Source of the DNA: Anaerolinea sp.
GTDB taxonomy: Bacteria; Chloroflexota; Anaerolineae; Anaerolineales; Anaerolineaceae
Direction: 5' to 3'
Assembly (NCBI GenBank): GCA_029975965.1
Contig: JARKOV010000160.1
Location: 1 to 33,534, forward strand
DNA length: 33,534 nucleotides
Shown here one piece after another: positions 99 through 29,448 of this stretch. The notes beneath the pieces were generated by a model that made no database searches, was not told the DNA's origin, and saw only the letters and a program-made list of their open reading frames with translations. The first letter of the stretch is position 1; each line of letters starts with the position of its first letter. The translations under genes were made by a program, and so were the position numbers.

Positions 99-1070
99 TC
101 ACTCCGCCAGCGCCTGCGACACCACATTGCCCGGCTCGAAAAGCCGGCGGAACTCGGCCAGCGAGTCGGCTTTCTGCTCCTCGCCCAGCGGCAGGAAGAA
201 GACGTTCTCGCCAAAATCGGCGACCTCCTGCACCACCCATTCATGACCGTAGTAGGCGATCAGCTCACCATCCGGCTCGCCAGCCAGGCCATAGGCCGCG
301 GCGATCTCCGGCCACTCCGGCGCGTTGCGCCAAAAGACGAGGTCGCGCTCCGGCGGGGCGAGCATGATTCCGCCCCAATCGATCACCGACAAACGCCCAT
401 CCGCGCCGGTGAGGATGTTCGCCCCGTGAATATCGGCGTGGCACACCACCTGCGCCGGCCCTCGGCTGCGGGCGCGCGCTCCCAGCGCTCGCGCTCCGAG
501 CAAGACACGCTCGATTGACGCGGTCTTGTCGCGGATGAACTCCGCCAGCGCAGCCTCTGCCGAACCGGGCGGCCAGCTTGCGAGGGCGGCCTGTAACACG
601 CGCGCAGCGGTCTCCTGGTGCGCACGAAAGCTCTCCGCCGGGAGCATGGCGCGCAAGTCCGGCGGCAGGCTGCCGGTCGCGCCGTGCAACTCGGCCAGCA
701 TTCGCCCAATGCGCTGCGCGTCGCCCGACCGCAAGCCGCGGTCCATCAACGACTCGCCCGCCACGAAAGGGTACACCACCAGGTGCAGGTCGCTCACCTG
801 CGCCGCGAGCAGGCCGTCCGGGGTGGGTCGGGCAGCCACCAGCCATTCCAGCCCCAACCGCTCGCGCAGGTAGGCCGTCACGGGCAGCTCGCCGGGTTGA
901 AGTGCCTGGCGCAGCTTGGCAAACCAGGCCTCACCGTGCGCGTCCTCAACGCGGTACGCCCAGCCGTCCATGCCAACGGGCAGGAACTCGACCGCGCTCA
1001 CGCCGAGGCGGTAATGGCGCTCCAGGAGGGCGCCCACTTCTTCGTCGCTCAAATGCGGCCGGTAACGCAT
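99..1070 (-). CDS. APH-family small-molecule kinase (spectinomycin phosphotransferase-like)
   Basis: A 323-residue protein of the aminoglycoside phosphotransferase/choline kinase fold. Visible motifs are the N-lobe VGMDGWAYRV (about 32-41) with candidate ATP-binding Lys52, the catalytic loop HADIHGANIL (His211, Asp213, Asn218) and the metal-binding IDWGG (Asp231). The N-terminal pattern and length resemble APH(9)-type spectinomycin kinases, but such proteins are often metabolic kinases, so a resistance role should not be assumed. It lies 16 bp downstream of the aminotransferase with an AAGGGA ribosome site, inside the GRE operon. Together with the following HAD gene it may process a hydroxylated or amino metabolite (inference). 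Confidence 0.8.
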   Translation of the reverse strand: MRYRPHLSDEEVGALLERHYRLGVSAVEFLPVGMDGWAYRVEDAHGEAWFAKLRQALQPGELPVTAYLRERLGLEWLVAARPTPDGLLAAQVSDLHLVVYPFVAGESLMDRGLRSGDAQRIGRMLAELHGATGSLPPDLRAMLPAESFRAHQETAARVLQAALASWPPGSAEAALAEFIRDKTASIERVLLGARALGARARSRGPAQVVCHADIHGANILTGADGRLSVIDWGGIMLAPPERDLVFWRNAPEWPEIAAAYGLAGEPDGELIAYYGHEWVVQEVADFGENVFFLPLGEEQKADSLAEFRRLFEPGNVVSQALAE

Positions 1071-1086
1071 CGCGATCCCTTGCGGA

Positions 1087-2196
1087 TCAACCCAGGTGTT
1101 CCGCGAAGAGGGCCAGCGCCTCGGGCAGGTTCTTGCGCCCCAGCCCGACGCGAAAATGCCGGCCCGGCCAGCCGAACAGGCTGCCCGGCACGATCATCAC
1201 CCCGTGCCGGGCGACCACCTCGTCGGCCAGCGCTTCGACCGGCTGCACGCCGAGCCACTGCGGAAAGGCGATCGAACCGCCGTCCGGCTCGATCCAGCCG
1301 AAGAGCGAGCTGCGCGAAGCGAAGAAGGCGCGCGCCGCCCCCAGGTTGGTCCGCACAATGTCCAGGTTGCGCGCCAGGATCGACTCGCCCGCGCGCAGGG
1401 CGACGATGGAGAGAATTTCGCCTGGAGCGCTTGCGCAGATGGTCGTGTAATCTTTGAACGCCTGGCACTGCGCCAGCAGCTCTCGATCTGCGCAGGCCAG
1501 CCAGCCGCTGCGCAGCCCCGGCAGCCCGTAGGCTTTAGAAAGCCCGGCCAGGCTGAGCGCCCGCTCGTACTGCGTGCAGGCAGCGGGCAGGCGCTGCCGC
1601 GGGTCATGCTCGAGCAGGCGGTACATCTCGTCTGAGAACAGGTATGCTCCCGCGCGGCGGACCAGCTCGATCAGCTTCTGCCACTCCTCCGGCGTGGGAT
1701 GAAAACCGGTCGGGTTGTTGGGGAAGTTGACCACCACCAGGCGGGTGGGCGCGCGCAGCGCGTCTTCAAGGCGCGCCAGGTCGAGCGCCCAGCGGTCTCC
1801 CTCCAGCCGCAACGGCCAGCCGGTCACCGCGCAGCCCAGCGCGCGCGCCACAGCGTGCAGCGATTGGTAGGCGGGTTCCAGCACCACCACCCGGTCGCCG
1901 GGGCGCAGCAAAGCGTTCATGGCGATGAAAATGGCCTCTTCGGGGGCGGCGCATAACACATCCTGCGCCGAGAGCCCCGCATATTGTCCAGCGATCTCCG
2001 CGCGCAAGAGCGGGTGACCCGGCGACTCGGTGTACCCCAGGCGCAAATCCTCCCACAGCCGGCGCGTTTCATCGTCCGCCATTTCCAGCAGCTCCGCCAT
2101 GCCCAGGCTCTCGCAGTCCGACGGGCTGAGCAGATAGCGCGCGGTGAACTCGTGGCGGGCAAAGTAACGCTCGAGGGAGAAGGGTTCAATCCTCAT
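1087..2196 (-). CDS. PLP-dependent class I/II aminotransferase
   Basis: A 369-residue fold-type I aminotransferase. Visible landmarks are NNPTG at 160-164, the PLP-pyridine Asp189 with Tyr192 in LFSDEMY, the Schiff-base Lys221 in GLSKAYGLPG, and Arg229 in LRSGW, the phosphate-binding position. All catalytic residues are present and the length is normal. The start ATG is preceded by GGAAAG. It follows the GRE by 42 bp on the same strand and precedes the APH-type kinase by 16 bp, so co-transcription is likely. In context it would make or remove an amino group on the GRE substrate or product (inference). The amino acid specificity cannot be deduced. Confidence 0.88.
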   Translation of the reverse strand: MRIEPFSLERYFARHEFTARYLLSPSDCESLGMAELLEMADDETRRLWEDLRLGYTESPGHPLLRAEIAGQYAGLSAQDVLCAAPEEAIFIAMNALLRPGDRVVVLEPAYQSLHAVARALGCAVTGWPLRLEGDRWALDLARLEDALRAPTRLVVVNFPNNPTGFHPTPEEWQKLIELVRRAGAYLFSDEMYRLLEHDPRQRLPAACTQYERALSLAGLSKAYGLPGLRSGWLACADRELLAQCQAFKDYTTICASAPGEILSIVALRAGESILARNLDIVRTNLGAARAFFASRSSLFGWIEPDGGSIAFPQWLGVQPVEALADEVVARHGVMIVPGSLFGWPGRHFRVGLGRKNLPEALALFAEHLG

Positions 2197-2238
2197 GGCA
2201 ATGATCGATCTTTCCGAAAAAGAATTTTTAAATAAGCT

Positions 2239-4485
2239 CTACAGGTTGGTGATGATCCGCTCGACGACCAACTGGCGGAATCCGGGCGACAGGCTGGCGA
2301 AGTAGGCGCTGAAACCGGTCACCCGCACGACCAAATCGGGATATTGGCTGGGGTTTTGGTGGGCCTCGAGCACTTTTTCCGCGTCCATCACATTCAGGTT
2401 GATCTGCGTGCCGCCCAACCGGAAGTGCGCGCGGATTAAGCCGGCAACCAGGTCGATGCCTTCTTCCTCGCGGGCGATCAGCGGGTCGAGTTCGATCTGC
2501 ATGGGGGCGGTGTTGCCGTATCCGGGCTGCACGGCGGCGATCGCCGCCGCCATGGCGGTCGGCGCGCCGTCTTTGCGAAAACCCGGGTCGGGGTTGGCGC
2601 CGTGCGAGATGGGGTCGCCGGCAAAACGTCCGTTGGGCGTCGCGCCGACGTCCCTGCCCATCGGGATGGTATTGGCCCACGAGAACAGCCCGGGGATCAT
2701 GCGGTAGCCGTCGGGCGTGCGCGCCCCGGACACCTGAGCGGCAAAGGCGCGCGCGATGCGCACGGCGTACTCGTCGGCCGTTGAGCCGCCGGAGCCGTAG
2801 CGCGGGATGCTCTTGAGCATGCGCCGGGCGCGCTCGCCCTCGGGACCGGCCCAGTTCTCGCGCAGGTGGGCTCGCACCTCGGTCCAACTGAGCAGTCGCT
2901 CGCGCTCCACACGCTGCTCCAGCGCCGCGAACGAATCGGCCACCGTCGCCAGCGCCGCGCCGTCCACGCACAGGTTGTAGAACTCCAGCCCGCCCTGCGA
3001 CGCGTCCAGCCCGCTCTCCAGCGGCCCGTGGCAGCACAGGTCGAGCACCAGTTCCGGGTACACCGCGTGCATGTGCTCGAGGTGGAAATCCAGGCAGCGC
3101 GCGGTGGCCAGCACGGCGCGCTCCAGGTGCTTCTCGAAACGCCGCCACAGCTCGGCGGTGGAGGGCGGCGCGGCAGGGTCGTCCAGCATATCGTCCAGGG
3201 CAACCTCGAAGACGCGCGCAAAGTTGATCTTCACGCAGTCGTTCAGCGTGTACTCTCGCCCAGGGATCGCCGACCAGTGGCAGCCTGAATAGGCGCGCTG
3301 GCGGCCGAGCTCGATCGGGTATCCGCTGCGCGCAAAACCTTCCGCGGTGCGCTCGACGCCGAGAAACTTGGGGTAGCCCGCCTTATCGGCGAACTGGATC
3401 TCCACCGCCCGGCGCAGCAAGCCGGGGTCGATGCCCTCGCCGACGCACACGCCGACGTTGGCGGGAATGCGCAGGCGGTGCCCGGCTTCGAGCACCAGGT
3501 AAGACACGCGGCTGGTCAGGTCGTTGCCCTGCGCATCCGGCCCGCCGAGCTGCAGGTAAGCCGTATCGCGCAGCAAGAGGCAGGCCACGTAGAAGATGGC
3601 CTCCTCGTCGTCCAAGATCCCGTCGGCCGTGTCGCGCTGGTAGAAAGGCTGCAGCAGCACGTCCAGCCGCCCGAGCGAGCCCGATCCGTTGTACATGCGC
3701 GCAATTAATTGGAACCACAAAATCCACTGGCAGGCTTCGCGGAAGGTGCGTGGGGGCTGCTCGACCAGGCGCGCGTTGATCTCGGCGATCTCTGCGAGGT
3801 TGCGGCGCAACAGGGGGTGGCTCTCCTCGCCGGCCATCCGGCGCGCCTCCGCGACGTGGCGGCCGATCCAATCTTGCACGCCGTGCACCACCGCTTCGAG
3901 CCCGGCGTAGAAATCGGCGCTGCGCCCCGCGTTGGCCCTGCGGTAGTGCTCGATCTTCGCCAGCAGCCCGCCCCAACCCAGCTCCAGCCCAATCTGCAGA
4001 TCCTGGCAGAAGTGCTGGGTCGCGCCGATCCCTGGCAGCAGCCTGTATTGCTCGATTTCAGCCTGGAACCGGGCAGTGCTCAGGTCTGGATTCCAGTGCG
4101 GCTTGCGGTACGACATGAAGTTGACCATGTAACCGCCTGCCAACGAGCTGAGCGGGTCGAGGTACACCGGGTGCTGTTCGAGCAGCCGCCGGTAATTCTC
4201 ACCCACCGCGCGCGGCCCAAAGAACCCGCCGGAGGGGTGATTGGGTTGGATCTCGTAGCCCTCCAGCAGGCAGTCGGTGATCGGCATACCCGAGGAGCTG
4301 ATCGTCTGCACAATTTTCCGCCGGTCCGGCGGCGGCAAGATGAGCCCCCAATCGTCGTGGTCCATCGCTCCGATCAGGGCTTGTTTCTCGGCGGTTTGGG
4401 CCAGCTTGGTCGCGCGCAGCGCCTCCAGGCGATCCTGCCAGCCAAACGGTGCAGTCGGTCGCGCATTTTTCATCCGGTGGTTCAC
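2239..4485 (-). CDS. Glycyl radical enzyme (PFL-like family) of unknown reaction
   Basis: A 748-residue member of the pyruvate formate-lyase/glycyl radical family, oxygen-sensitive and cytoplasmic. The glycyl loop is RVTGFSAYF with the radical Gly at 724, close to the family consensus RVxGYSAxF. The thiyl Cys is Cys402 in SGCHWSAIPGREY. Another conserved block is TPNGRFAGDPISHG at about 616-629. Eliminase GREs (glycerol, propanediol, choline, hydroxyproline, isethionate enzymes) have Cys-x-Glu; here position 404 is Trp. PFL itself has two adjacent Cys, also absent. It therefore fits neither class. The start overlaps the activase stop by 4 bp, showing tight coupling. The family is certain; the substrate is unknown. 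Confidence 0.93.
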   Translation of the reverse strand: MNHRMKNARPTAPFGWQDRLEALRATKLAQTAEKQALIGAMDHDDWGLILPPPDRRKIVQTISSSGMPITDCLLEGYEIQPNHPSGGFFGPRAVGENYRRLLEQHPVYLDPLSSLAGGYMVNFMSYRKPHWNPDLSTARFQAEIEQYRLLPGIGATQHFCQDLQIGLELGWGGLLAKIEHYRRANAGRSADFYAGLEAVVHGVQDWIGRHVAEARRMAGEESHPLLRRNLAEIAEINARLVEQPPRTFREACQWILWFQLIARMYNGSGSLGRLDVLLQPFYQRDTADGILDDEEAIFYVACLLLRDTAYLQLGGPDAQGNDLTSRVSYLVLEAGHRLRIPANVGVCVGEGIDPGLLRRAVEIQFADKAGYPKFLGVERTAEGFARSGYPIELGRQRAYSGCHWSAIPGREYTLNDCVKINFARVFEVALDDMLDDPAAPPSTAELWRRFEKHLERAVLATARCLDFHLEHMHAVYPELVLDLCCHGPLESGLDASQGGLEFYNLCVDGAALATVADSFAALEQRVERERLLSWTEVRAHLRENWAGPEGERARRMLKSIPRYGSGGSTADEYAVRIARAFAAQVSGARTPDGYRMIPGLFSWANTIPMGRDVGATPNGRFAGDPISHGANPDPGFRKDGAPTAMAAAIAAVQPGYGNTAPMQIELDPLIAREEEGIDLVAGLIRAHFRLGGTQINLNVMDAEKVLEAHQNPSQYPDLVVRVTGFSAYFASLSPGFRQLVVERIITNL

Positions 4486-5411
4486 CCTTTCACCACAACC
4501 CCGTGAGAGCGAGCCGCCTCAGCCAGCTCCGCCATCCGCTCTTTGCCCGGTGCGACCAGCTCGCCGGCGCGGTAGTCCAGCCCCAGGCTGTGGTATTTCT
4601 CCTCCGCCAGGCGGTGGAAGGCGAGGAGCTCCAGCGTGAGGCCGGCCCCGCCATCGGCGCGCTCCGCGCCCAACGATGACACGAACGCGGCGATCGCGCC
4701 GACCTCTTCCGGCGTATCGTTCACCCCCGGCACCACCGGCACGCGGAAAATGAGCAGCTTGCCTGTAGCTGCCAGGCGGCGTATGTTGGCGAGGATAGTG
4801 TGGTTGGTGACCCCGGTGGCAGCGCGGTGTTTTTCCGCGTCGATGTGCTTGATATCGACCATGAACAGGTCAACCAGCGGCAGGGCGTTTTCCAGATGCT
4901 CCCAACGGCACTGCGTGGTGGTTTCCACTGCCGTGTGCAGGCCCTCCGCCTTCGCCGCCGCCAGCAGCGCCAGCGAGAACTCGGGCTGCAGGAACGGCTC
5001 ACCCCCCGAAAGAGTCATCCCGCCGCCCGACGTCTCGTAAAACACGCGGTCCGCCAGCACCTCGCGCATCACCTCTGCCGGCCCCACCTCGCGGCCCACC
5101 ACCTGCAGCCCTTCGGCAAAGCACACTTCCACGCATTCGCCGCACACCACGCAGCGCTCTCGGCGGTAGATGCGTTCGCCGCCGGCAGACAACTCCTGGG
5201 CGCTTTCCGGGCAGGCGCGCACGCACTCGCCGCAGCCGATACAGCGCGAGGGATAGAACTGCACCTCTGCCCTGGGGCGCAGCCCTTCCGGGTTGTGGCA
5301 CCAAAAACAGCGCAGCGGGCAGCCTTTGAGGAAGACGGTCGTGCGGATTCCGGGGCCGTCGTGAATCGAAAAGCGTTGGATGTTGAAAATGGTGCCGGTC
5401 GGATGGGGCAT
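4482..5411 (-). CDS. Glycyl radical enzyme activating enzyme (radical SAM)
   Basis: A 309-residue PflA-type activase that installs the glycyl radical on its partner using SAM. The radical SAM cluster motif is Cys31-x3-Cys35-x2-Cys38 (GCPLRCFWC). It is followed by an inserted bis-[4Fe-4S] ferredoxin domain with Cys57/60/63/67 and Cys87/90/93/97, typical of activases for GREs other than classical PFL. The SAM-binding SGGEP is at 135-139. It is the first gene of the operon and its stop overlaps the GRE start (ATGA), so the two are translationally coupled. The ATG lies exactly 6 nt after a TATAAT box, which implies a leaderless mRNA. No Shine-Dalgarno sequence is seen. Confidence 0.95.
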   Translation of the reverse strand: MPHPTGTIFNIQRFSIHDGPGIRTTVFLKGCPLRCFWCHNPEGLRPRAEVQFYPSRCIGCGECVRACPESAQELSAGGERIYRRERCVVCGECVEVCFAEGLQVVGREVGPAEVMREVLADRVFYETSGGGMTLSGGEPFLQPEFSLALLAAAKAEGLHTAVETTTQCRWEHLENALPLVDLFMVDIKHIDAEKHRAATGVTNHTILANIRRLAATGKLLIFRVPVVPGVNDTPEEVGAIAAFVSSLGAERADGGAGLTLELLAFHRLAEEKYHSLGLDYRAGELVAPGKERMAELAEAARSHGVVVKG

Positions 5412-5417
5412 AGCTGA

Positions 5418-5423
5418 ATTATA
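5418..5423 (-). promoter_or_regulatory. -10 box TATAAT of the GRE operon (leaderless)
   Basis: On the minus strand TATAAT is followed by TCAGCT and then the ATG of the activase. With initiation about 7 nt after the box, the transcript would begin at or next to the start codon. No good -35 hexamer is seen 17 nt upstream. The same 6-nt spacing recurs at three other genes in this window. Confidence 0.6.
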
Positions 5424-5495
5424 CGGTAACTATGATTTTACGCCGGTCGGGAAAGGATCGTCCGGCCCTGGCCGGAGGATCGCAAAGGCAGAACG

Positions 5496-5528
5496 GAAAC
5501 CACCGCTGAGCGCAGATGAACACGGATA
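5496..5528. repeat. Degenerate intergenic repeat (ATCCGTGTTCATCTGCG type)
   Basis: On the minus strand this reads ATCCGTGTTCATCTGCG followed shortly by GTGGTTTC. It belongs to a short-phrase repeat type seen between genes in many environmental bacterial genomes (recalled, not searched). A related copy is at 11660-11722. The rest of the 237-bp gap 5412-5648 holds the operon promoter, a small TCCGGCC/GGCCGGA hairpin at 5461-5476 and no gene. Confidence 0.5.
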
Positions 5529-5648
5529 TTCGATAGGGAAGGGGTTTGAGTTTATGTCTGGCCGGAAAATTTTTTGCCAACCCAAATAAAATTTAGGGAC
5601 CAGTTCTCAGAAATCTGTGGCGGTGACGCTGAACCTCTGGCCCGGCGC

Positions 5649-6920
5649 TTAATTTTGCGCAGGCAAGGCAGCCGCCTTTTCGCGCCGCGCCAGCCTGGAA
5701 GCCAAAACGACCAGCAGCGCCCCGATGAGGAAGAAGCCGATGTTCATCATGAACGGGTAGGTGCGGTCGATCGAGGAGAGCAACCCGCCGATCCAGCCGA
5801 AGGGCGAGGTGGCTGCCACCTGGATCACCAGCAAGATCGCCAGGATGCGCGCCCGCTCCTGCGCGTCCACCGTGACGACCAGCATGCGGTCGAGTTGGGT
5901 GCCGAGCACCGCGTAGCTGCACGTCTCGATTAACACCGATGCCAGCAACAGCAGGTAGCTCCCCTGCGGGATGTTGATCAGCAGCAAATTGGCAGCGGCA
6001 AAACCCGCCAACCCCACCAGCATGGGATTGCGGAAGTGCATCGAGCGCACGCGGGGGATGACGGCGAAGAAGAAGGTCAGCATGATCAGCGACCTGGCGA
6101 ACGGGTAGAGCGCGATGTGCTCCGCCGGGATGCGCAGCCGCTCGGTGACGAGGATCGCCCAAAAGGTGGAGCCAACGGTGGTGGCGATGCTCATCACCAG
6201 CATGATGCCCAGGGTGTACAGCGTCGCCGGGGTGGAGAAGATCTGGCGCAGCACGCCGCGATATTCGCCCAGCATGCTGAACAGGCTCTGATCGCGCGTC
6301 TCCTGCATGCGCACCACCCCCTGGCGCGTTTCGGTGACCATGAAATTCATCACGATGAACTTGACCGTCATCATCACGCATGCCAGCAAGTACAGCCCGC
6401 GCATGGTCGGCACCAGCCCGAACTGGTTGATCAGCACACCCGCCAGCGGTGCAAAGAATACCGCCAACTGGCCGGAAATGTAAATCCAGGCGTAGATGTC
6501 GACCAGCAGCTCTGGGTCGGCGTCCTCCACCAGCACGCAGCTCCACGAGGTGTGGGTGATGCGCCACAGCGAATTGACCATCGCGGCGACGACAAAGTAG
6601 GTAAAGTTCTGCGCGATAGCCCAGATCAAGGTCGGGATCGACCAGGAGAGGATATCGAAGATCAGCGTGGTGCGCTTGCGCCCCAGTTTGTCGGTGATCA
6701 CGCCGCTGAGCAGCGCAAAGACGATCTGCCCCGCCAGCCCGATGCTGGTGACCAGCCCGATCTGCGTGTCGCTCAGGCCGAATGACAGCATGTAGATCGA
6801 TACGTACGGCGCGTACAGGTTATAGGGGATACCCCACAGGGGCTCGGTCAGCACCGCGCCGCGCGCGTTGCCTTGCAGGCTTTTCAGGGTGGTGACGAGG
6901 GGGTGTGAGGCAAAGTTCAT
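5649..6920 (-). CDS. MFS transporter
   Basis: A 423-residue major facilitator with about 12 hydrophobic segments. MFS motif A is seen as SGVITDKLGRKRT between segments 2 and 3 (about residues 73-85), and a central charged loop (about 205-230) separates the two six-helix halves. The substrate is not evident. It is on the same strand as the GRE operon and ends 237 bp before the activase start. Because the operon has its own -10 box, the transporter may be a separate transcript, but it is the obvious candidate to move the substrate or product. A TACAAT box at 6950-6955 gives a short leader; no Shine-Dalgarno sequence is visible. Confidence 0.85.
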   Translation of the reverse strand: MNFASHPLVTTLKSLQGNARGAVLTEPLWGIPYNLYAPYVSIYMLSFGLSDTQIGLVTSIGLAGQIVFALLSGVITDKLGRKRTTLIFDILSWSIPTLIWAIAQNFTYFVVAAMVNSLWRITHTSWSCVLVEDADPELLVDIYAWIYISGQLAVFFAPLAGVLINQFGLVPTMRGLYLLACVMMTVKFIVMNFMVTETRQGVVRMQETRDQSLFSMLGEYRGVLRQIFSTPATLYTLGIMLVMSIATTVGSTFWAILVTERLRIPAEHIALYPFARSLIMLTFFFAVIPRVRSMHFRNPMLVGLAGFAAANLLLINIPQGSYLLLLASVLIETCSYAVLGTQLDRMLVVTVDAQERARILAILLVIQVAATSPFGWIGGLLSSIDRTYPFMMNIGFFLIGALLVVLASRLARREKAAALPAQN

Positions 6921-11183: not shown

Positions 11184-11540
11184 CTTTCGCCGGCGAAGGC
11201 TGGATGAGGGTTCTTTTCCTTCTCCCTCCGGGAGAAGGCCAGATGAGGGTTCTTTTCCTTCTCCCCCCGGGAGAAGGCCGGATGAGGGACCTTTTCCTTC
11301 TCCCTCTGGGAGAAGGCCAGGATGAGGGTCTTTCGCCTCCCCCACCGGGCGAAGGCTGGATGAGGGCCTTTTCCTTCTCCCCCAGGAGAAGGCCGGATGA
11401 GGGTCTTTCGCCTCCCCCCCGGGAGAAGGCCGGATGAGAGTCTTTCGCCTCCCCCACCGGCGAATGCCGGATGAGGGGTCTTTCCCTTCTCCCTCTGGGA
11501 GAAGGCCAGGATGAGGGCCTTCAATCTTCGCCTCCCCCGG
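11184..11540. repeat. Tandem array of about nine hairpin-forming units
   Basis: Units of about 36-41 bp each carry GGATGAGG followed by a hairpin of the form CCTTCTCCC-n-GGGAGAAGG. Unit starts are near 11201, 11241, 11281, 11319, 11358, 11394, 11432, 11468 and 11509. Some units have TTCGCC in the left arm and GGCGAA in the right arm instead, so both arms changed together. Open frames through the array only read the repeat and are not genes. The 688-bp gap 11059-11746 holds this array, two other repeat types and no gene. Confidence 0.85.
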
Positions 11541-17273: not shown

Positions 17274-18401
17274 ATGCTGTTCGACTTGACTCGACTGAAA
17301 CCCGCCCGAACCGCGCGCCGTTCCTCCTGGGACGTCTCCGGGCGCAACGCCGACTCGTGGCGCATCGCCCCCGGCGAGACGCGCGTGCTGGCCGACCTGA
17401 CCGGCCCCGGCTGCATCACCCACCTGTGGATGACCCAGGGCGAGCATTACCGCGAATGCCTGCTCAAGATCACCTGGGACAACGCCGACCGGCCCAGCGT
17501 GCTCGTTCCCCTGGGCGATTTTTTCTGCCTCGGGCACGGCATGGTCAACTCATTCCAGTCCTTCCTTTTCACCGCTTCCACCGCCTCGAACAACCAGCTC
17601 AACCGGGGCTGCGCCCTGAACTGCTACGCGCGCATGCCCTTCCGAGAGCGGGCGCTGGTCGAGCTGGTCAACGAGAGCGGCGAGTGGCACAACCAGTATT
17701 TCTACGTCGATTACGAGAGCTACGACCAGCCCCTCCCCGCCGACAGCGCCTACTTCCACGCCGAGTTCCGCCGCCAGAACCCCTTCGGCGGCTGGGGGCA
17801 CGAGATCGAGGTCAACACCCCCGAGGCCGACATCGCCAACAAGGAGCGCCTCGCCTGGGACAACAACTACCTGATCCTCGAGACGCAGGGGCGCGGGCAC
17901 TACATTGGCTGCAACCTGTCGGTGACCAACTTCCAGGGCACCTGGTGGGGCGAGGGGGACGACATGATCTGGGTGGACGGCTATAAATGGCCGCCCGACC
18001 TGCACGGCACCGGCTCGGAGGATTACCTCAACCAGGCCTGGGGCATGCAGCCCAACGCTTTTCTGCGCAACGGCAGCTCTATCTTCCACGACTTTACCCA
18101 CGGCTACCAGACCAGCTACGTCTTCCACCTGGAAAACCCGGTGCGCTTCGAGCGCGAGATCAAGGTGACCATCGAGCACGGGCATGGCAATCACCTGCGC
18201 AACGAGATGAGCAGCACGGCTTACTGGTACGCCGCGCAGCCCGCGCCCGCCGCGGCGGTCCCGCCGGTGGAAAAGCGCCTGCCCGTGCTGCGCGACAACC
18301 AGGGCAGGTGGCTCTACGACCCGGCCAACCAGATCACCTCGCGCGAGATCTCGCCCAACGAGGAGATGCTGGCGATGAAGAAGCGCTGGAAAGAGCGTTA
18401 A
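17274..18401 (+). CDS. GH172 / DUF2961 glycoside hydrolase-like protein
   Basis: A 375-residue DUF2961 protein, the family now classed as GH172, which includes difructose-anhydride-forming alpha-fructofuranosidases and D-arabinofuranosidases. Family blocks seen are ADLTGPGCITHLWMT (40-54), PLGDFFCLGHG (79-89), the paired WWGEGDDMIWVDG (224-236) and HGTGSEDYLNQAWG (244-257). Glu227 and Glu249 are the likely catalytic pair, with nearly the same separation as in the characterised enzyme (recalled, not aligned). No signal peptide is present, so it would be cytoplasmic or exported by other means. It is monocistronic with a strong terminator. Which furanoside it uses is not predictable. Confidence 0.88.
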   Translation: MLFDLTRLKPARTARRSSWDVSGRNADSWRIAPGETRVLADLTGPGCITHLWMTQGEHYRECLLKITWDNADRPSVLVPLGDFFCLGHGMVNSFQSFLFTASTASNNQLNRGCALNCYARMPFRERALVELVNESGEWHNQYFYVDYESYDQPLPADSAYFHAEFRRQNPFGGWGHEIEVNTPEADIANKERLAWDNNYLILETQGRGHYIGCNLSVTNFQGTWWGEGDDMIWVDGYKWPPDLHGTGSEDYLNQAWGMQPNAFLRNGSSIFHDFTHGYQTSYVFHLENPVRFEREIKVTIEHGHGNHLRNEMSSTAYWYAAQPAPAAAVPPVEKRLPVLRDNQGRWLYDPANQITSREISPNEEMLAMKKRWKER

Positions 18402-18438: not shown

Positions 18439-19671
18439 CTAACTCACCACTTGCATAGCGATCTGCGCCCATTGGGCGAGCCGGCGCGGCTCGTAACGCA
18501 CCGTGCTGATGTCTTTGAGGATCAGCTCCAGCGGGCAGCCGCATTCGGCGCAGATGCTCACCGTCGCTTCCAGGTCTTCGCGCACGGCCCGCGGGTCGAA
18601 GTCGTCGAAGGCCAGCAGCGCCGGGTTGGGCTTGCGCGAGAAGACGTAATCGCGCCCAATTTGCTCCGCCCCGCGGCGCTGGTTGGCCCACGGGCTCATC
18701 GACACCTTGCGCACGTTGGGAATCATGCGCACCTGGGCCATCTTCTGGTCCAGAGGGTCGCAGCAGCCGTAGTAGACCAGGCCAAAGCGCTCGCAGATGC
18801 GCGAGGCGTAGTCCACTTCGTACTCTTTGAACATGCGCGGCGAGACGGTGGAGAACATCTGCGCCAGGCCGAACATCCAGATATCCTGGGTGCGCGGCTT
18901 ACGTGGGTCGTAACCCGGGGCGGGCAGCTCGTCGGTGTAGGCGCCGGTGCAGTGGATCAGGCTCTGCGGCTGGCACAGCAGCCCGCCCTCCACCAGTTGG
19001 TCGAGCATGCTCAGGTAACCTTCGGTCATGCGACCGACCAGCCCGTGCATCAGCTCGGGTTGGTCGATCAGGGCGTAGAGCGCGTTTTCCACCCCCATCC
19101 AGGTGGCGATCGGGTCCCACAGGGATAGGTAGGGGTCCATGCCCCAGGGGCGCACCTCTAGCAGCCCATCGAACAGCGCGTGAGCCACATCCAGGCGGCG
19201 CTCGGTTTCGGCGGGGTCGTGGGAGATCTGCGGGATGCGCACTTTGTCCAGGTCGTCTGGCGTCTGGAACTGGTTGAGGTAGCGGTGCGCCACCACGTCG
19301 TTGCTCGGGTCGGTCACGGCGACGTTCTCAAGCACTTCGATGCCAAAGCCGCTGTTGCTGATCGCCATGGGCACGCGCAAGAAGGGCTCCACCACCATGT
19401 CCACGCGGAAATGCGCCCACTGGTAGAGGGTGCGGCGCAGGAACTCCTCGTAGGCGCGGCACTCGGGGTCGACGCAGCGCAGCACCAGCTCCTCCTCGGC
19501 GGCGAACTCGTTCCAGCAGACCTGGTCGATCATCACCATCGGGCGGACGGGGTCGAGCGCGTTGAGCCGGCGCCACAGGGCGCGTTTCTCTTCCTGCGCC
19601 GGCAGCGCGGCGATCTCGGCGGTGCGGGCGGCCAACTCGCGCAGGACGGCAGCGTCTTTCGGGTCGATCAT
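18439..19671 (-). CDS. Uroporphyrinogen decarboxylase-fold protein (methyltransferase-like)
   Basis: A 410-residue protein of the URO-D superfamily, which includes heme-pathway HemE and the zinc-dependent methylcobamide:CoM/cobalamin methyltransferases. The long N-terminus with MIDQVCWNEF, the central GMDPYLSLWDPIATWMG, and the late GCCDPLDQK (about 300) plus AECGCPLELILKDIST (about 378-395) are unlike HemE. The Cys-rich blocks could supply zinc ligands as in methyltransferase relatives (inference). Such proteins often accompany corrinoid demethylation or sugar-catabolic clusters, but no corrinoid protein is nearby. The start has GAGGAG and a TAAAAT box at 19699-19704. It converges on the GH172 gene. 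Confidence 0.8.
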   Translation of the reverse strand: MIDPKDAAVLRELAARTAEIAALPAQEEKRALWRRLNALDPVRPMVMIDQVCWNEFAAEEELVLRCVDPECRAYEEFLRRTLYQWAHFRVDMVVEPFLRVPMAISNSGFGIEVLENVAVTDPSNDVVAHRYLNQFQTPDDLDKVRIPQISHDPAETERRLDVAHALFDGLLEVRPWGMDPYLSLWDPIATWMGVENALYALIDQPELMHGLVGRMTEGYLSMLDQLVEGGLLCQPQSLIHCTGAYTDELPAPGYDPRKPRTQDIWMFGLAQMFSTVSPRMFKEYEVDYASRICERFGLVYYGCCDPLDQKMAQVRMIPNVRKVSMSPWANQRRGAEQIGRDYVFSRKPNPALLAFDDFDPRAVREDLEATVSICAECGCPLELILKDISTVRYEPRRLAQWAQIAMQVVS

Positions 19672-24066: not shown

Positions 24067-24948
24067 TTACCGTCCATTGAGCGTTTCTGTGATGTTCACG
24101 GTCATCCAATCATAGCGTTGATTACCCGCTCCCAATAAGCCGCCTGATGAATCGAACGAATTGTATACCCAGTTCATAAACATATCGGCGTAATCCTCGT
24201 TACGAGCAACGTTATTGACGTTGGAATCCCAATCAGTCCAATTCCTTCGCCCATGATACATATACGGGGGCGCATCACCCTGGTAGCCCAATAATGTACG
24301 CTCATAACTTCCTCCAGGATGGGTACCGAAAACCCAGTTTCCATCTTGATCGATTAATTGTGTATCGTCCAGAGCAAAATAGGGTCGATTTCCATACTCT
24401 TGAGCAAAAGTGTGGCCGAACTCGTGAGTGAATAAACGCGGGTCACTAGCCGCACCAGTTCCACACACAAACCCATTTCCACCACCCGCGTTGCACCCAT
24501 TTCCGTCTCCAGCGAAGGTCGCAGTTACTTCTCCCATGGCCGAAGAAAAGGCTTGCGCAGCAGACGATACCCCTTTCACCAAAGGCTCTAGAGCATGCCC
24601 AATTTCAATTGCTGCCAGGACGATGGCAGCTCTTTGAGCAGATTTTCCACCAACGAACTTTACGCCATAGCTCTTCGCCACCTTGAGCATGTCAAGAGCG
24701 TCTGGTTCTTTGTAGTTACCTTTATACCCCGGTCTTGGATCGTGGCCCGTTGGGTCGCTGTAATTGATGGGATTATTTTGGACGTAACTGTATCGATCCA
24801 GGTCTAGGGGATTATAAGGGTCGGGTATAATGCTGTTAGTATGCTCCCACGCAGCCCGCAGGGACGCTTGCGAGTTGCGGCCGGGCACGTTTTGGGGTAC
24901 GCTTCCCTCGTTGAGCAGACGGGGATGCGAATTCCGGGTACGCTGCAT
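24067..24948 (-). CDS. RHS C-terminal tip 1 with HExxH metallopeptidase domain (5' truncated)
   Basis: About 293 residues. NPLDLDRYSYVQNNPINYSD plus PTGH (about 47-69) is the end of an RHS core. After the P-x4-D-P-x-G-H boundary comes a variable domain with THEFGHTFAQEYG, an HExxH zinc site at 175-179, and NEDYADMFMNW, which supplies a likely third ligand as in gluzincin-type peptidases. Everything N-terminal of the core end is missing. The first ~38 residues are not RHS-like and read into the left end of the IS110 element, so the ATG at 24948 may not be a native start. It is an orphan tip waiting to be joined to an RHS shell, or a relic. Confidence 0.75.
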   Translation of the reverse strand: MQRTRNSHPRLLNEGSVPQNVPGRNSQASLRAAWEHTNSIIPDPYNPLDLDRYSYVQNNPINYSDPTGHDPRPGYKGNYKEPDALDMLKVAKSYGVKFVGGKSAQRAAIVLAAIEIGHALEPLVKGVSSAAQAFSSAMGEVTATFAGDGNGCNAGGGNGFVCGTGAASDPRLFTHEFGHTFAQEYGNRPYFALDDTQLIDQDGNWVFGTHPGGSYERTLLGYQGDAPPYMYHGRRNWTDWDSNVNNVARNEDYADMFMNWVYNSFDSSGGLLGAGNQRYDWMTVNITETLNGR

Positions 24949-25150
24949 CAGGGTCCGTCGAGGCCGGATTGAGAAGTCGTATTTGACAAGCTCGCGATTG
25001 CTGTTTGACGGCCCGTTCGATTACTCAACTGGGAACCCAGTGACTTTGACAGGGAAGCCCGAGTCTGTGTCTGCAACAGCCACCCAAAAAAGAAACGTGC
25101 CCGGCCTTGCTGGTGGGTCCACCAGAACATTTCGAAAGGAGCATACGGAA
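24949..25150 (+). ncRNA. Candidate bridge RNA region of the IS110 element
   Basis: IS110-group elements encode a structured bridge RNA in the non-coding left end, upstream of the transposase, that base-pairs with donor and target DNA. This 202-bp stretch is in the right place and size and carries no believable gene. I did not fold it, and the RNA boundaries are unknown. Confidence 0.3.
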
Positions 25151-26374
25151 ATGTCGCCTGTCAAACCTGGTCCCAAACGTTTCGTTGGGCTCGATCTGCA
25201 TAAATACTACCTGGTCGCCACAGCGGTGGATCAAGACCTGAACAAAGTCTATGGTCCCAGGCGAGTGGACTTGACCGAACTTCAGGGATGGATGGGGAAA
25301 ATACTGACCCCTGAAGATGCCGCTGTACTCGAAATGACCGGCAATACGTGGCATGTGTATGATGAACTGCTGCCACATGTCCACTCCGTTACCGTTGTGC
25401 ATCCGCCGCATGTGGCGCTGATCGTGCGCGCCCAGGTGATGACCGACAAAATCGCCGCATTGCAGCTGGCTCGCCTGCACGCCAAAGGTCTGTTAACCGG
25501 TATTTGGGTGCCGCCCCAAGACGTGCGCGATTTGCGAACGCTGGTGGCGCAACGCCAGAAAATGACCGCCATCAAAACGCAAGCCAAAAACCGCCTGCAA
25601 GCCACTCTGCATCGCTATCACATTCTGCCGCCTGGTGGCAAGCTGTATGAGATCGCAATGCGTTCGTGGTGGCTGGAGTTGCCGGTTAGCAAGCTGGAAT
25701 TGGTGCGGATTCAATCGGATCTCGATACCCTCGCCTTTTCCGAACAACAAATTGCCAATCTCGAAGGCTGTATGGCAGTTTGGGCAGCTGAGGATGAGCG
25801 CGTCGCAATGCTCTTTGAACTCACCGGGGTTGGGCTGGTCACTGCCGTGACGGTACTGGCCGCCATCGGCGACATTTCCCGCTTTCCGGATGCCGATCAC
25901 CTGGTCGGCTATTCTGGACTTGGCGCACGCATCCATGACTCTGGCCTTACCAGCCGCAAAGGCGGGATTACCAAAGCCGGGCGAAAAGAACTGCGTGCCG
26001 TTCTGGTCGAAGCAGCCCAAATCGGTGTGTTACACGACCCGCGTTGGAAAGCCGAATTGGATCGCCTTTCGCCACGCACCGGACGCAATAAAGCCATCGT
26101 TGCCATTGCCCGCAAAATGCTGATCGTCATCTGGCATATCCTGAGCCGGCACGAGGCCGACAAGAAGCTGGATCTGGAACGCCTGGCCCGAAAATATTAC
26201 GAGTTTGCCTACACCGTGGGCAAGGCCAACTGGGGCGATTGCCTGTCAGCAACCGCCTTCATCCGCAAGAAGCTGGACGAGGCCGGGGTGGGCCAGGAGA
26301 TGAGTTCGTTCATCTATGCTCGCCGGCGCATCCTCCTGCCACCCAGCTCATTGCCTCCTATGCCAAAACAATGA
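25151..26374 (+). CDS. IS110-family transposase
   Basis: A 407-residue DEDD-plus-Ser recombinase. The N-terminal RuvC-like domain has Asp15 (FVGLDLHKYYLVA), Glu61 (LEMTGNTW) and Asp99 (MTDKIAALQLARL). The fourth acidic residue normally sits at +3 (TDxxD); here position 102 is Ala. The C-terminal Tnp domain has GVGLVTAVTVLAAIGDISRF, then GYSGLGARIHDSG and RKGGITKAGRKELR, with the expected serine region. The ATG at 25151 follows AAAGGAG by 13 nt. A longer frame upstream has no family similarity. Apart from the Ala102 question the gene is intact. Confidence 0.92.
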   Translation: MSPVKPGPKRFVGLDLHKYYLVATAVDQDLNKVYGPRRVDLTELQGWMGKILTPEDAAVLEMTGNTWHVYDELLPHVHSVTVVHPPHVALIVRAQVMTDKIAALQLARLHAKGLLTGIWVPPQDVRDLRTLVAQRQKMTAIKTQAKNRLQATLHRYHILPPGGKLYEIAMRSWWLELPVSKLELVRIQSDLDTLAFSEQQIANLEGCMAVWAAEDERVAMLFELTGVGLVTAVTVLAAIGDISRFPDADHLVGYSGLGARIHDSGLTSRKGGITKAGRKELRAVLVEAAQIGVLHDPRWKAELDRLSPRTGRNKAIVAIARKMLIVIWHILSRHEADKKLDLERLARKYYEFAYTVGKANWGDCLSATAFIRKKLDEAGVGQEMSSFIYARRRILLPPSSLPPMPKQ

Positions 26375-26390
26375 GCGGTGGCACAAATAG

Positions 26391-26606
26391 GTAGGCGCTC
26401 CTGAAGCCAGGATTTCCCTGACGCCCTGGGATCGAGACCTGTTCCCAGCACTTGGGGCCGTGCTCACCGCTCAAGGCGATTATATCACCGCGAGCATCGG
26501 GCGCGACCGGCAGTGGACGGCGACTGGACAAGTGAATAGCTCAGCCCAACGCTTTCTGCAAGGAAAAAGCGATATGGGATCGCGCGTCCTGTTCAATGGA
26601 CTATGA
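26391..26606 (+). pseudogene. 3' remnant of an unknown gene cut by the IS110 insertion
   Basis: An open frame of 71 codons without a start codon, from just after an in-frame TAG at 26388 to a TGA at 26604. The product reads like real protein (LTPWDRDLFPALGAVLTAQG, then DYITASIGRDRQWTATG) with codon use like a gene. It begins 17 bp after the transposase stop, so the element's right end probably removed the 5' part. The family is not recognised. The direct repeat at 26607 starts immediately after its stop. The rest of the gap to 26721 has an isolated TATAAT (26658-26663) and no gene. Confidence 0.4.
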
Positions 26607-26620
26607 GGTTGGTAAGGTAC
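26607..26620. repeat. Direct repeat GGTTGGTAAGGTAC, copy 2
   Basis: Identical to 23043-23056. It is 102 bp beyond the stop of the tip-2 immunity gene, on the side away from the tip. Confidence 0.55.
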
Positions 26621-26721
26621 AAGGCAGCTGAGACAGCCGCGGTTGACGAAGCTGCGGTATAATCAGGGTACCCCAATACGGAATGCGAACAGCATAAGGT
26701 TCAATCCGATGCGCTCGTCTT

Positions 26722-27168
26722 TCATTTTGGGCGTTTTTCGAGGTCGTCCAGCATGGCCTGAATGACAATAGATAAATCCGTGCTTGCTGGGAAGTTGATC
26801 TGCTTTTCTAAGGGGAAGATCCAGCGACCCTTCCTATCCAGTTCAGATATTTCTAATTCAAATCCTTTTTCAGTTAGCACAATATCATAAGCAATCCCAT
26901 TTTTGGAAAGACGTTTCCAACTGCGCGCTCCGGTCGCTTTTGGAAGCAGGTCTCGACGGAACCTAATCTCCTCCGGAGTTGGATTGGGTAATATTTCGGG
27001 CTTTTCGGATAATATTGATTGAATTATAGGAAGTAATTCAGATTGCGTTGGGTTGACGACATACACAGGTTCAAGGTCCGTAAACGGACCTTCGTTAACA
27101 TAGCGAGCAGGTGTCGGTATGTAGGCTTTATTATTCCAGATTGTGATTGCAGCTGATCGAATATCCAT
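26722..27168 (-). CDS. Candidate immunity protein of RHS tip 2 (CdiI-like role)
   Basis: A 148-residue soluble protein with no signal peptide or membrane segment. It is mixed alpha/beta in character (AITIWNNKAYIPTPARYVNE, then DIVLTEKGFELEISELD) with a Pro-rich turn EILPNPTPEEIRF. No named family is recognised. It starts 8 bp after the stop of the nuclease-type RHS tip 2, with AGAGGG before the ATG, the classical toxin-immunity layout. Being cytosolic is what an inhibitor of a cytoplasm-acting nuclease needs. The role is inferred from position only. Confidence 0.7.
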   Translation of the reverse strand: MDIRSAAITIWNNKAYIPTPARYVNEGPFTDLEPVYVVNPTQSELLPIIQSILSEKPEILPNPTPEEIRFRRDLLPKATGARSWKRLSKNGIAYDIVLTEKGFELEISELDRKGRWIFPLEKQINFPASTDLSIVIQAMLDDLEKRPK

Positions 27169-27176
27169 GCTTCCCT

Positions 27177-27956
27177 CTATTTTATGACCTTCAACACCAA
27201 ATTGACGCCCTGGTTCGCGGCATCTGCTGCAAGTTTCTGAAGCGCTTTCATCTGTTCAGCACCTGCATTTCTCGGTATCGCTAATATCAGATCGCGCCCT
27301 CTAATCATTGTGTTTGTGATTCTCACACCGCCGTATCTAGCACCAGTAAAATTGGCAAGCTTATCAATATAACCTTGAACTTGTGAGGTTAATGCTCCAA
27401 TATTCTGATAGGTCTTTGCCCCTAAGTCAACACTCTTGATACTGGTGGCAATGCCGTTTTCAAAACGATCTATCGTCGGGAAACCGGACAGGTCTCGCAG
27501 TAAAGTACCTCTTCCAATCAATTTTTCTATTGCCCAACCTCTCTGAAGAGTATCAAGACTCCATACACTTGTTCCTATGCCTAAAGATGCCTCAACAGCA
27601 GCTGCGCATGGAGCTACAGCGCTACAAGCCAGTGCAGCAGTCCCCAAAGCTAAAGCCCCATGTGCTAAGCCTTCAGCTGCGATGTACGCCCCTGCTCCTG
27701 CTTTCTGGGAGATGCTTGCTCTTGGGTGTTGGACAATCGAAAGTGCCATGTCCAGGTTATTGCAGGTCGTAGTATAGCTCGGTATACCTCGTATTGCACT
27801 GGCTACGCCCCAGCAATGGCCACTTGGGTCTTGGTAAACGATCGGATTATTTGCAACATACGCGTAGCGGTCGAGTCCTCTACCATCTTGACTTTCTGGT
27901 ACATCTGTATCAGGCTGGCACCAGCGGTTAAGATAAGACCTGCTATTAGGAGTCAA
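27177..27956 (-). CDS. RHS C-terminal tip 2 with PD-(D/E)XK-like nuclease domain (5' truncated)
   Basis: 259 codons. SYLNRWCQPDTDVPES and LDRYAYVANNPIVYQDPSGH (about 28-47) are the end of an RHS core. A hydrophobic Ala-rich segment (about 86-135) may help entry or packing. The C-terminal 120 residues carry WAIEKLIGRG (Glu144), FPTIDRFENGIATSIKSVDL (Asp163, Lys174) and a final VNLVLKVIK. Glu...Asp...SIKS is the layout of the PD-(D/E)XK DNase/tRNase tails of CdiA effectors (recalled). The frame starts with a TTG at the junction with an IS110 fragment, so the native 5' part is gone. Confidence 0.75.
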   Translation of the reverse strand: MTPNSRSYLNRWCQPDTDVPESQDGRGLDRYAYVANNPIVYQDPSGHCWGVASAIRGIPSYTTTCNNLDMALSIVQHPRASISQKAGAGAYIAAEGLAHGALALGTAALACSAVAPCAAAVEASLGIGTSVWSLDTLQRGWAIEKLIGRGTLLRDLSGFPTIDRFENGIATSIKSVDLGAKTYQNIGALTSQVQGYIDKLANFTGARYGGVRITNTMIRGRDLILAIPRNAGAEQMKALQKLAADAANQGVNLVLKVIK

Positions 27957-28150
27957 GGGGCAATTCTCACAGGATGGACTTCGTAAGGGCGGTTCTCCTT
28001 CAGGATGACATAAATTCGGATGAGCAGCTTGCGGCAGACCGCACCCAAAGCCACGCCGTGCGGCTTGCCTTCAGCGAGCTTCTTGTGGTAATACGCGCTC
28101 AATTCCGTGTTGTGCTGGATGCACATCGAGGCGGCTTGCCACGCTATCAC
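27953..28150 (-). pseudogene. IS110-family transposase, C-terminal fragment (minus strand)
   Basis: About 60 codons with QHNTELSAYYHKKLAEGKPH and VCRKLLIRIYVILKENRPYE, the standard end of many IS110/IS116 transposases (HNPxLxAYYxxLxxxGKPxxVAL then RKLL). All N-terminal catalytic parts are missing. It meets a second IS110 fragment head to head near 28150 and abuts the RHS tip 2 sequence on the other side. Confidence 0.7.
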
Positions 28151-28484
28151 CGGTCACGCGCACTGGAAAGCGCAGTTCGAAGCCCTCTCCAGTCGCATCG
28201 GCAAGAAAAAGGCCATCGTGGCCATCGCCCGCAAGCTGCTGGTGGTGATCTGGCACGTCCTGACCAAAGAGGTGGCCGACAACAAGGCCAACCCTACCCA
28301 GGTGGCCTGTTCGCTGTTCGCCTTTGCCCATAAGGTACGTGTGAAGAACCTACCCAAGGGCCAGACCGCGCTGGGATTTACCCGCCAGCAACTCGACCGG
28401 CTTAAGATTGGTCAGGAGGTGCGCCAAATCCCCTGGGGTACGAAGAAATTCACGCTCCCGGAGAGTAAGCTGACCGCCAAGTAA
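28150..28484 (+). pseudogene. IS110-family transposase, C-terminal fragment (plus strand)
   Basis: About 110 codons aligned by eye to the end of the intact transposase: HWKAQFEALSSRIGKKKAIV and ARKLLVVIWHVLTKEVADNK against RWKAELDRLSPRTGRNKAIV and ARKMLIVIWHILSRHEADKK. The divergence shows it came from a different IS110 element. It has no catalytic domain. The following gap 28485-28691 holds a decayed direct repeat and a hairpin. Confidence 0.75.
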
Positions 28485-28555
28485 GCAACGAGGCCAGACA
28501 ACGGAATACGTATCCAAAAACCTGCTTTCGAACAAGCGGGCTGTGGAGATATTTT

Positions 28556-28568
28556 GTTTTTAAGGTAC
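28556..28568. repeat. Decayed copy of the GGTTGGTAAGGTAC repeat
   Basis: GTTTTTAAGGTAC differs from the other copies at two positions over 13 bp. It lies 124 bp beyond the stop of the tip-3 lipoprotein gene, again on the distal side of an immunity gene. Confidence 0.35.
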
Positions 28569-28624
28569 TGAGGTATTGGCTTTCGGCTCAGTCCGAGCTA
28601 TACTGAAGACACACGGCAAGAGAG

Positions 28625-28673
28625 GCGAGCAGAGGTGGTCTTCCACCCCTTCGCTCGTCTTTCAATTATGGGT
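28625..28673 (-). terminator. Hairpin downstream of the tip-3 lipoprotein gene
   Basis: CGAGC (28626-28630) with GCTCG (28653-28657) and GGTGG (28634-28638) with CCACC (28643-28647) form an interrupted stem 35 bp after the stop. There is no T-tract. The segment CGCTCGTCTTTCA here recurs at the end of the tip-2 immunity gene (about 26709-26724). Confidence 0.35.
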
Positions 28674-28691
28674 AAAGTACCAGTGATCTTC

Positions 28692-29432: not shown

Positions 29433-29448
29433 GGAACCTCTTCCTAAT

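Follow-up and report, generated by a model that had tools for sequence, protein, structure and literature searches.

What reaction can a glycyl radical enzyme (GRE) carry out when the residue two positions after its thiyl cysteine (Cys+2) is tryptophan and not glutamate? The question is raised by a gene in a 33,534-nucleotide stretch of Anaerolinea sp. DNA (contig JARKOV010000160.1 of assembly GCA_029975965.1, positions 1 to 33,534; called the window below). An original prediction, made from the letters alone, described a GRE with Trp at Cys+2 and took the missing Glu as the sign of a new reaction class. The gene and its neighbors were compared with homologs, profile models, and structures. 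As judged by alignment and tree, the gene is a member of a distinct, uncharacterized branch of pyruvate formate-lyase (PFL)-like GREs with a Cys-x-Trp motif, a shortened beta2-beta3 segment, and an invariant Asp416 and Glu478. Statements attributed to cited reports are drawn from excerpts of those reports.

The GRE gene and its Cys-x-Trp motif

The GRE gene runs from 4485 to 2239 on the minus strand and is a 748-residue open reading frame (ORF) with a GTG start. It had first been placed at 2239..4485; the positions stand, and the minus-strand location is to be added, the plus strand having stops there. A 100%-identical database copy (P0001) has 744 residues and not 748, so the true start may be an ATG four codons downstream, in which case all residue numbers would be lower by 4. 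The numbering of the original prediction (748-residue ORF) is used throughout. A Pfam scan found a PFL-like domain (288 bits) and a Gly_radical domain (56 bits), and both matches (PF02901 and PF01228) exceed their curated cut-offs, which places the protein among the PFL-like GREs. The Cys loop SGCHW (residues 400–404, 3274..3288, minus strand) holds the thiyl Cys402 and Trp404, and the Gly loop RVTGFSAYF (residues 721–729, 2299..2325, minus strand), recognized by its sequence pattern, holds the radical Gly724, all as first predicted and in the same numbering. With both residues in their loops and an activase gene present, the protein is, on these features, an intact PFL-like GRE.

Conservation of Trp404 was examined in three clades of Cys-x-Trp (CxW) proteins. 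A homolog search over 5.8 billion proteins gave 2056 matches at an E value of 1e-30 among scored candidates, and the best 120 have 69%–100% identity. The row set of each clade consists of the best-scoring 120 of its homolog search plus fetched loci, and is a sample of the family rather than the whole. Clade A, to which the window GRE belongs, was aligned as 153 rows, 151 of which differ in their last 500 residues, and one 48%-identical sister was set aside. Cys402 and Trp404 are invariant in the remaining rows (152/152), with residue 403 being His in 148 (CHW) and Asn in four (CNW). Clade B, a sister family with ~48% identity, has CNW in 121 of 121 rows, and clade C, a third family with 29% identity, has CQW in 120 of 120. 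Trp without Glu at Cys+2 is thus borne out in every row of all three clades, and chance or a one-codon sequencing error behind Trp404 was rejected on this clade-wide conservation. The pattern RVTGFSA[YF]F occurs in 119 of the first 120 homologs (window copy included) and was not found in one. All 55 ungapped CxW rows have Thr at 723, as does one Cys-x-Glu (CxE) row, and the position in clade C holds 117 Thr and one Cys.

The CxE motif is described as conserved among GRE eliminases (PMC7077986, PMC8473560). This mark of glycerol dehydratase (GD), propanediol dehydratase, CutC, HypD, and IslA is absent from the window GRE and from every aligned row of clades A, B, and C. Fetched loci yielded 103 distinct GREs, 58 of them CxW; the remaining 45 are all CxE. 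The sources of this set were two genome scans, PF02901 searches of 18 genomes with a clade A or clade B member, in which loci were obtained for 30 of 49 and 30 of 54 places, and two E. coli GREs. The contrast drawn earlier, of eliminases with CxE and PFL with Cys-Cys, leaves out known enzymes with other residues. BSS has Cys493-Met494-Ser495, and therefore Ser at Cys+2 (PMC11194802, PMC13298812), and PAD has Gln, whereas HPAD and IAD, both decarboxylases, retain Glu (PMC9248008, PMC6181972). In our alignment, Val-Ser comes directly after the E. coli PFL thiyl residue, Cys419, which puts Ser at Cys+2 and the second Cys at −1. Because PFL, BSS, and PAD are also without Glu at Cys+2, the missing Glu alone does not make a new class, and this part of the original prediction was not upheld. 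A new reaction class is possible. By alignment, the Glu loss comes together with several other linked changes near the presumed pocket. No description of a CxW GRE was found among the titles and abstract openings listed in searches of openly licensed papers. A limonene GRE was considered as a match and rejected, being in the excerpted account an X-succinate synthase, outside the CxW group (PMC12583861).

Family placement and the presumed pocket

In a 52-row tree rooted at its midpoint, the 27 CxW rows fall together on one side of a branch (support 100/100, 200 of 200 bootstrap trees), as expected for a single origin under that root. Outside the group are PflB, HypD, PflD, YbiW, and a GRE of a Citrobacter pdu-type cluster, taken for a diol dehydratase. 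An earlier 63-row quick tree agrees (99 SH-aLRT), with its single clade C row on a long branch. Clustering with a characterized GRE that also lacks the Glu, which had been named as an outcome that would speak against a new class, was not seen in the 52-row tree; PflB represents such enzymes there, and the tree has no rows for X-succinate synthases, CutC, IslA, or HPAD.

Profile models gave no closer assignment. All 12 NCBIfam models listed score below their cut-offs, the best equivalog reaching 214 bits against 1109. The arylacetate decarboxylase models HPAD and IAD give 114 and 132 bits against 1150 and 1100, and the PFL model is only a distant match (87 bits). Identification as PFL was rejected on this weak match and on Gly401-Cys402-His403, which has no adjacent Cys pair. 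PflB and the window GRE are alike in having no Glu at Cys+2 (Ser in PflB), a basic residue at the place of 419, Asn at 696, and Glu at 478; they differ in the Cys pair and in the residue at 158, where PFL has Arg and CxW proteins have His. Sequence matches of the window GRE are 204 bits to PflD vs 91 to MasD and 76 to TutD. Scores of the profile used for the GD alignment below do not enter the ranking of PflD against the X-succinate synthases, as PflD and YbiW rows were inside that profile. The X-succinate synthases, with these weak matches and no place in the tree, resemble the window GRE in that BSS is without Glu at Cys+2, and BSS Arg508 at Cys+15 is close by spacing, not by alignment, to Lys419 at Cys+17. 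PAD/PhdB also has the Glu replaced, by Gln and not Trp (PMC9248008), and differs in having an aromatic substrate. At the fold level, the nearest structures of the AlphaFold2 model are PflD and glycerol and propanediol dehydratases, and one nearest PflD entry (S. dysgalactiae 8id0) has 1,5-anhydromannitol-6-phosphate bound. PflD (E. coli 8yjo and S. dysgalactiae 8id0) differs from the window GRE in having CVE in place of CHW, a longer beta2-beta3 segment, and Met at 419.

The pocket comparison rests on alignment and not on model geometry. For GD, a profile alignment to 1r8w was used, with residues counted by hand. Cys402 falls on Cys433, Trp404 on Glu435, His158 on His164, and Asp416 on Asp447, and GD His281 falls in a deletion. 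His158 (4012..4014, minus strand), also aligned with HypD His160, is present in 57 of 57 CxW rows and 41 of 43 CxE rows. Asp416 (3238..3240, minus strand), also aligned with E. coli PflD Asp433 (Met1 counted), is present in 57 of 57 CxW rows vs six of 43 CxE rows, the six including PflD and the Citrobacter GRE; it is found in all rows of clades A (152/152), B (121/121), and C (120/120). An equivalent carboxylate had been the second outcome named against a new class, and here the answer is divided: Asp416 does align with GD Asp447, but GD holds that Asp besides its Glu.

Further changes accompany Asp416. The beta2-beta3 segment D275-G314 (3544..3663, minus strand) is shortened to 39 residues. 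All 57 CxW rows, including one from clade C, have 39–40 residues in this span, compared with 44–86 (median 49) in the 43 CxE rows. The corresponding segment of HypD bears a helix that contacts the substrate (PMC7077986). Glu478 (3052..3054, minus strand) is fixed in the CxW group (57/57 CxW vs 0/43 CxE; 120/120 clade C), with Glu also in PflB. The shorter lid and the missing acid/base Glu do not demand an elimination, and an epimerization, isomerization, or other radical reaction of a sugar acid with no net bond loss is a further candidate. We know of no GRE with a reaction of this kind, and of the readings weighed here, it is the one we consider least probable.

Glu411 is also fixed in the CxW group and was considered as a stand-in base, but its specificity to CxW was lost in a better alignment. 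Because Glu is found there in eight of 43 CxE rows, HypD included, Glu411 is probably structural as judged by these rows. The fixed Glu411 and Glu478, along with nearest folds that are dehydratases, would suit an ordinary dehydratase with a known substrate, in which the role of the Glu has moved to another residue without new chemistry. We consider this improbable. The protein reaches none of the listed NCBIfam cut-offs, the shortened lid together with other changes in the pocket points to a different substrate, and HypD has Glu at 411 besides its Cys+2 Glu, the former not being among the substrate contacts described in the excerpted account of HypD.

Two other positions were tried as group features. 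Position 308 is Thr in 152 of 153 clade A alignment rows, and most clade B rows have Thr or Pro. GD, HypD, and PFL have an aromatic residue there, but among the CxE rows just 12 of 43 have Phe or Tyr. The idea that Trp404 and an aromatic residue at 308 changed places was weakened by these CxE counts and the Thr or Pro of clade B, and is only a suggestion from the alignment. Cys160 was dropped as a second catalytic Cys of shared chemistry, the position being Cys in clades A and C and Gly, Ser, or Ala in clade B.

Position 419 bears on a different reaction. Lys419 (3229..3231, minus strand; Arg in clade B) lies at the place of PFL Arg435 and HypD Tyr450. All 152 clade A rows have Lys or Arg there, as do 120 of the 121 from clade B (272/273 together), vs four of 43 CxE rows. 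It was dropped as a mark of the entire CxW group, since clade C has no basic residue there. BSS Arg508 and MASS Arg492 bind fumarate (PMC12358834); by spacing, both fall near this position. These residues suggest C-C cleavage or decarboxylation, two of the reactions named in the original prediction, here of a sugar-derived acid, in which Lys/Arg419 would hold the carboxylate as in PFL and BSS and a Cys+2 base would be unneeded. The basic residue aligns with PFL Arg435, which we take to bind pyruvate, and Asn696 and Glu478 are common to the window GRE and PflB. PFL (Ser), BSS (Ser495, PMC13298812), and PAD (Gln, PMC9248008) all do C-C chemistry without the Glu. On the other side, position 401 is Gly and there is no second Cys, which closes the acyl-transfer route of PFL; Asp416 matches GD and PflD in type, clade C is without a basic residue at 419, and PFL is distant in score. 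A GRE outside the CxE type also need not do C-C chemistry: class III ribonucleotide reductase, a more distant GRE, removes a hydroxyl. We regard C-C cleavage or decarboxylation as somewhat unlikely, though a serious alternative.

Gene neighborhoods in the window and in other genomes

The window GRE lies in a same-strand run (99–6920) of kinase, pyridoxal phosphate (PLP) enzyme, GRE, activase, and MFS genes. The activase is a radical-SAM glycyl radical activase with a ferredoxin-like insert (4482..5411, minus strand; TIGR02494, 357 bits against a cut-off of 174), and its gene and the GRE start overlap by 4 bases in a GTGA junction. Directly downstream of the GRE, after 42 bases, is a PLP fold-type I aminotransferase-like protein (1087..2196, minus strand; PF00155), for which the best NCBIfam model is VioD (266 bits, below the cut-off of 391) and GntC is also near. 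An APH-type kinase (99..1070, minus strand; PF01636, 59 bits) follows 16 bases past the PLP gene; it clustered with no ORF of the other loci, and its link to the GRE is uncertain. Upstream of the activase is an MFS transporter (5649..6920, minus strand; PF07690), with a member of the same cluster in locus L030, and two overlapping TTG-start ORFs of 51 and 53 residues lie between the two genes. X-succinate synthases are marked by small accessory subunits with genes next to that of the catalytic subunit; for a comparison on this point, the window run offers its five genes and these two short ORFs.

The PLP enzyme and kinase, next to each other and on the same strand as the GRE, suggest a lyase on an amino compound, with C-N or C-O cleavage. 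The PLP cluster also occurs in L030 and, on the opposite strand, in L017. Its nearest named models are VioD, which presumably acts on a hydroxyarginine, and GntC, which does so by its model description. However, the PLP cluster is found in only three of 37 clustered sequences, the window included, the kinase has no counterpart at the other loci, and the neighbors of other clade members more often belong to sugar-related families. We consider an amino substrate unlikely.

Elsewhere in the window, a 410-residue protein (18439–19671, minus strand) has no Pfam or NCBIfam match, clusters with one in L019, and adjoins a DUF2961 gene (17274–18401). A tandem array at 11195–11521 (39-base unit, 8.5 copies, 81% matches) opens spurious minus-strand reading frames. 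The region 24067–30579 contains what we take by eye to be RHS-like fragments around an apparent IS110-type transposase (24830–26374), probably a degraded RHS region. An Rfam scan of the window found nothing.

A scan of genome contigs for the window GRE gave 36 loci, with titles from Chloroflexi/Anaerolineae, Ignavibacteria, Bacteroidetes, Poribacteria, Verrucomicrobia, Armatimonadetes, Latescibacterota, Lentisphaerae, and a Clostridiales metagenome-assembled genome. Of 298 genomes sampled from one bacterial class, 26 have a match of the clade A/B type (E value of 1e-100 or better), and phage and plasmid records gave matches only below 60% identity. A plasmid of a named strain, pPP6 of Persicobacter psychrovividus NBRC 101262 (L129:11072–22564), carries a CNW GRE (44% identical) with an activase; the homolog adjoins a GH47 gene, and cellulase-family, TonB-receptor, and SusD genes are within ~15 kb.

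Neighbors within two genes of the GRE were scanned for 124 of 139 candidate proteins (15 omitted by size; five repeat or fragment loci skipped). They include SBP_bac_1 (11), Gfo/Idh/MocA (8), URO-D (6), ABC permeases (5), MFS (4), and enolase-superfamily proteins (3), and families found twice include alpha-L-fucosidase, sulfatase, and GH20. The control covered 114 of 119 genes, 14 of them window genes, separated from the GRE by 5 kb or more and by five genes or more, and gave SBP_bac_1 and Gfo/Idh/MocA at most once each and URO-D, permeases, and MFS twice each. In related operons, activase and GRE genes stand with genes for a URO-D-like protein, a solute-binding protein, permeases, and a PfkB-HAD fusion. 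The one solute-binding protein inspected resembles sugar binders, far below cut-off. At L136, the gene before the GRE encodes a ManD-like sugar-acid dehydratase (352 bits, cut-off 550), and upstream of the GRE at a clade C locus are genes for a transketolase, a 2-hydroxyacid dehydrogenase, and an aminotransferase. These neighbors are a hint of carbohydrate catabolism.

The URO-D-like protein (L018:12333–13430 and similar) follows the GRE in several related operons, and the L018 copy resembles methylcobalamin:coenzyme M methyltransferase, although its 43.5 bits are far short of the cut-off. Of 63 CxW GREs, the window GRE among them, 34 have an activase on the same strand no more than 600 bases away; with repeated contigs merged, the count is 32 of 59. 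The other 27 of the 59 have no same-strand activase match within that distance, several despite ample flanks; they may share an activase encoded elsewhere. On one contig (L015:4249–9748, the same contig as L161), CHW and CNW GREs are adjacent with one activase between them and a weak GH42 match beside, which suggests, for this one contig, that clade A and B sister enzymes can act in one pathway. Five genomes (G255, G185, G009, G007, and G205) have 9 to 17 PF02901 matches each, broken-gene pieces included, and many of their GREs have unusual Cys loops (GCME, GCWE, TCVE, GCHE).

Dehydration of a sugar-derived acid as a candidate reaction

Our first choice, held tentatively and at less than even confidence, is a lyase acting on a sugar-derived acid, most likely by dehydration, with His158 and Asp416 used in place of the Cys+2 Glu. 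The activase would place the radical on Gly724, from which it would pass to Cys402, and Cys402 would abstract a hydrogen from the substrate, a polyhydroxylated acid derived from a sugar. In clades A and B, Lys/Arg419 may hold the carboxylate or another anion of the substrate. His158 and Asp416 would perform the acid/base work done elsewhere by the Cys+2 Glu, a hydroxyl would most likely be expelled without a ketyl base, and Trp404 would occupy the space of the Glu. Dehydration is ranked first because Asp416 also occurs in the dehydratases closest in fold, which are of diol and sugar type, and is shared by CxW clades that differ at 419. C-C cleavage is placed close behind because of the chemistry of the Glu-less PFL-like GREs and the basic residue at 419.

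Several observations weigh against dehydration of a sugar-derived acid. To our knowledge, the PFL-like GREs without Glu at Cys+2 (PFL, X-succinate synthases, PAD) all make or break C-C bonds. Dehydration without this Glu would be unusual in the GRE family because HypD requires its own, the E436Q variant being inactive (PMC7077986). By alignment, His158 is common to nearly all GREs compared and is therefore not specific to the group, and position 419 in clade C is Ser, Ala, Thr, Leu, or Gly. The genes nearest the window GRE, for a PLP enzyme, a kinase, and an MFS transporter, are not sugar genes. Control genes are also of carbohydrate type (RraA-like, 4; PfkB, 2), and 10 loci share one binding-protein cluster in the related, mostly Ignavibacteria operons, so the neighbor counts are not independent.

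A broader proposal, which we hold a little more tentatively still, is that CxW GREs may form a further mechanistic class, in which, without a Cys+2 base and with a reduced lid segment, His158/Asp416 and, in two of the three subclades, a Lys/Arg carboxylate anchor would serve to cleave a bond in sugar-derived acids beyond the reach of known GREs. The Cys+2 residue is one mark for recognizing GRE eliminases, and the CxW branch offers a defined enzyme set for probing the chemistry possible without a Cys+2 base, with P. psychrovividus as a practical test organism. Source names for these proteins, where given, are mostly pyruvate formate-lyase or formate acetyltransferase. Because the missing Cys pair argues against PFL activity, metabolic reconstructions that count CxW GREs as PFL are likely wrong. 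If the proposal of a further mechanistic class is true, these enzymes would give anaerobic Chloroflexota, Ignavibacteria, and Bacteroidota an oxygen-sensitive route of carbohydrate breakdown.

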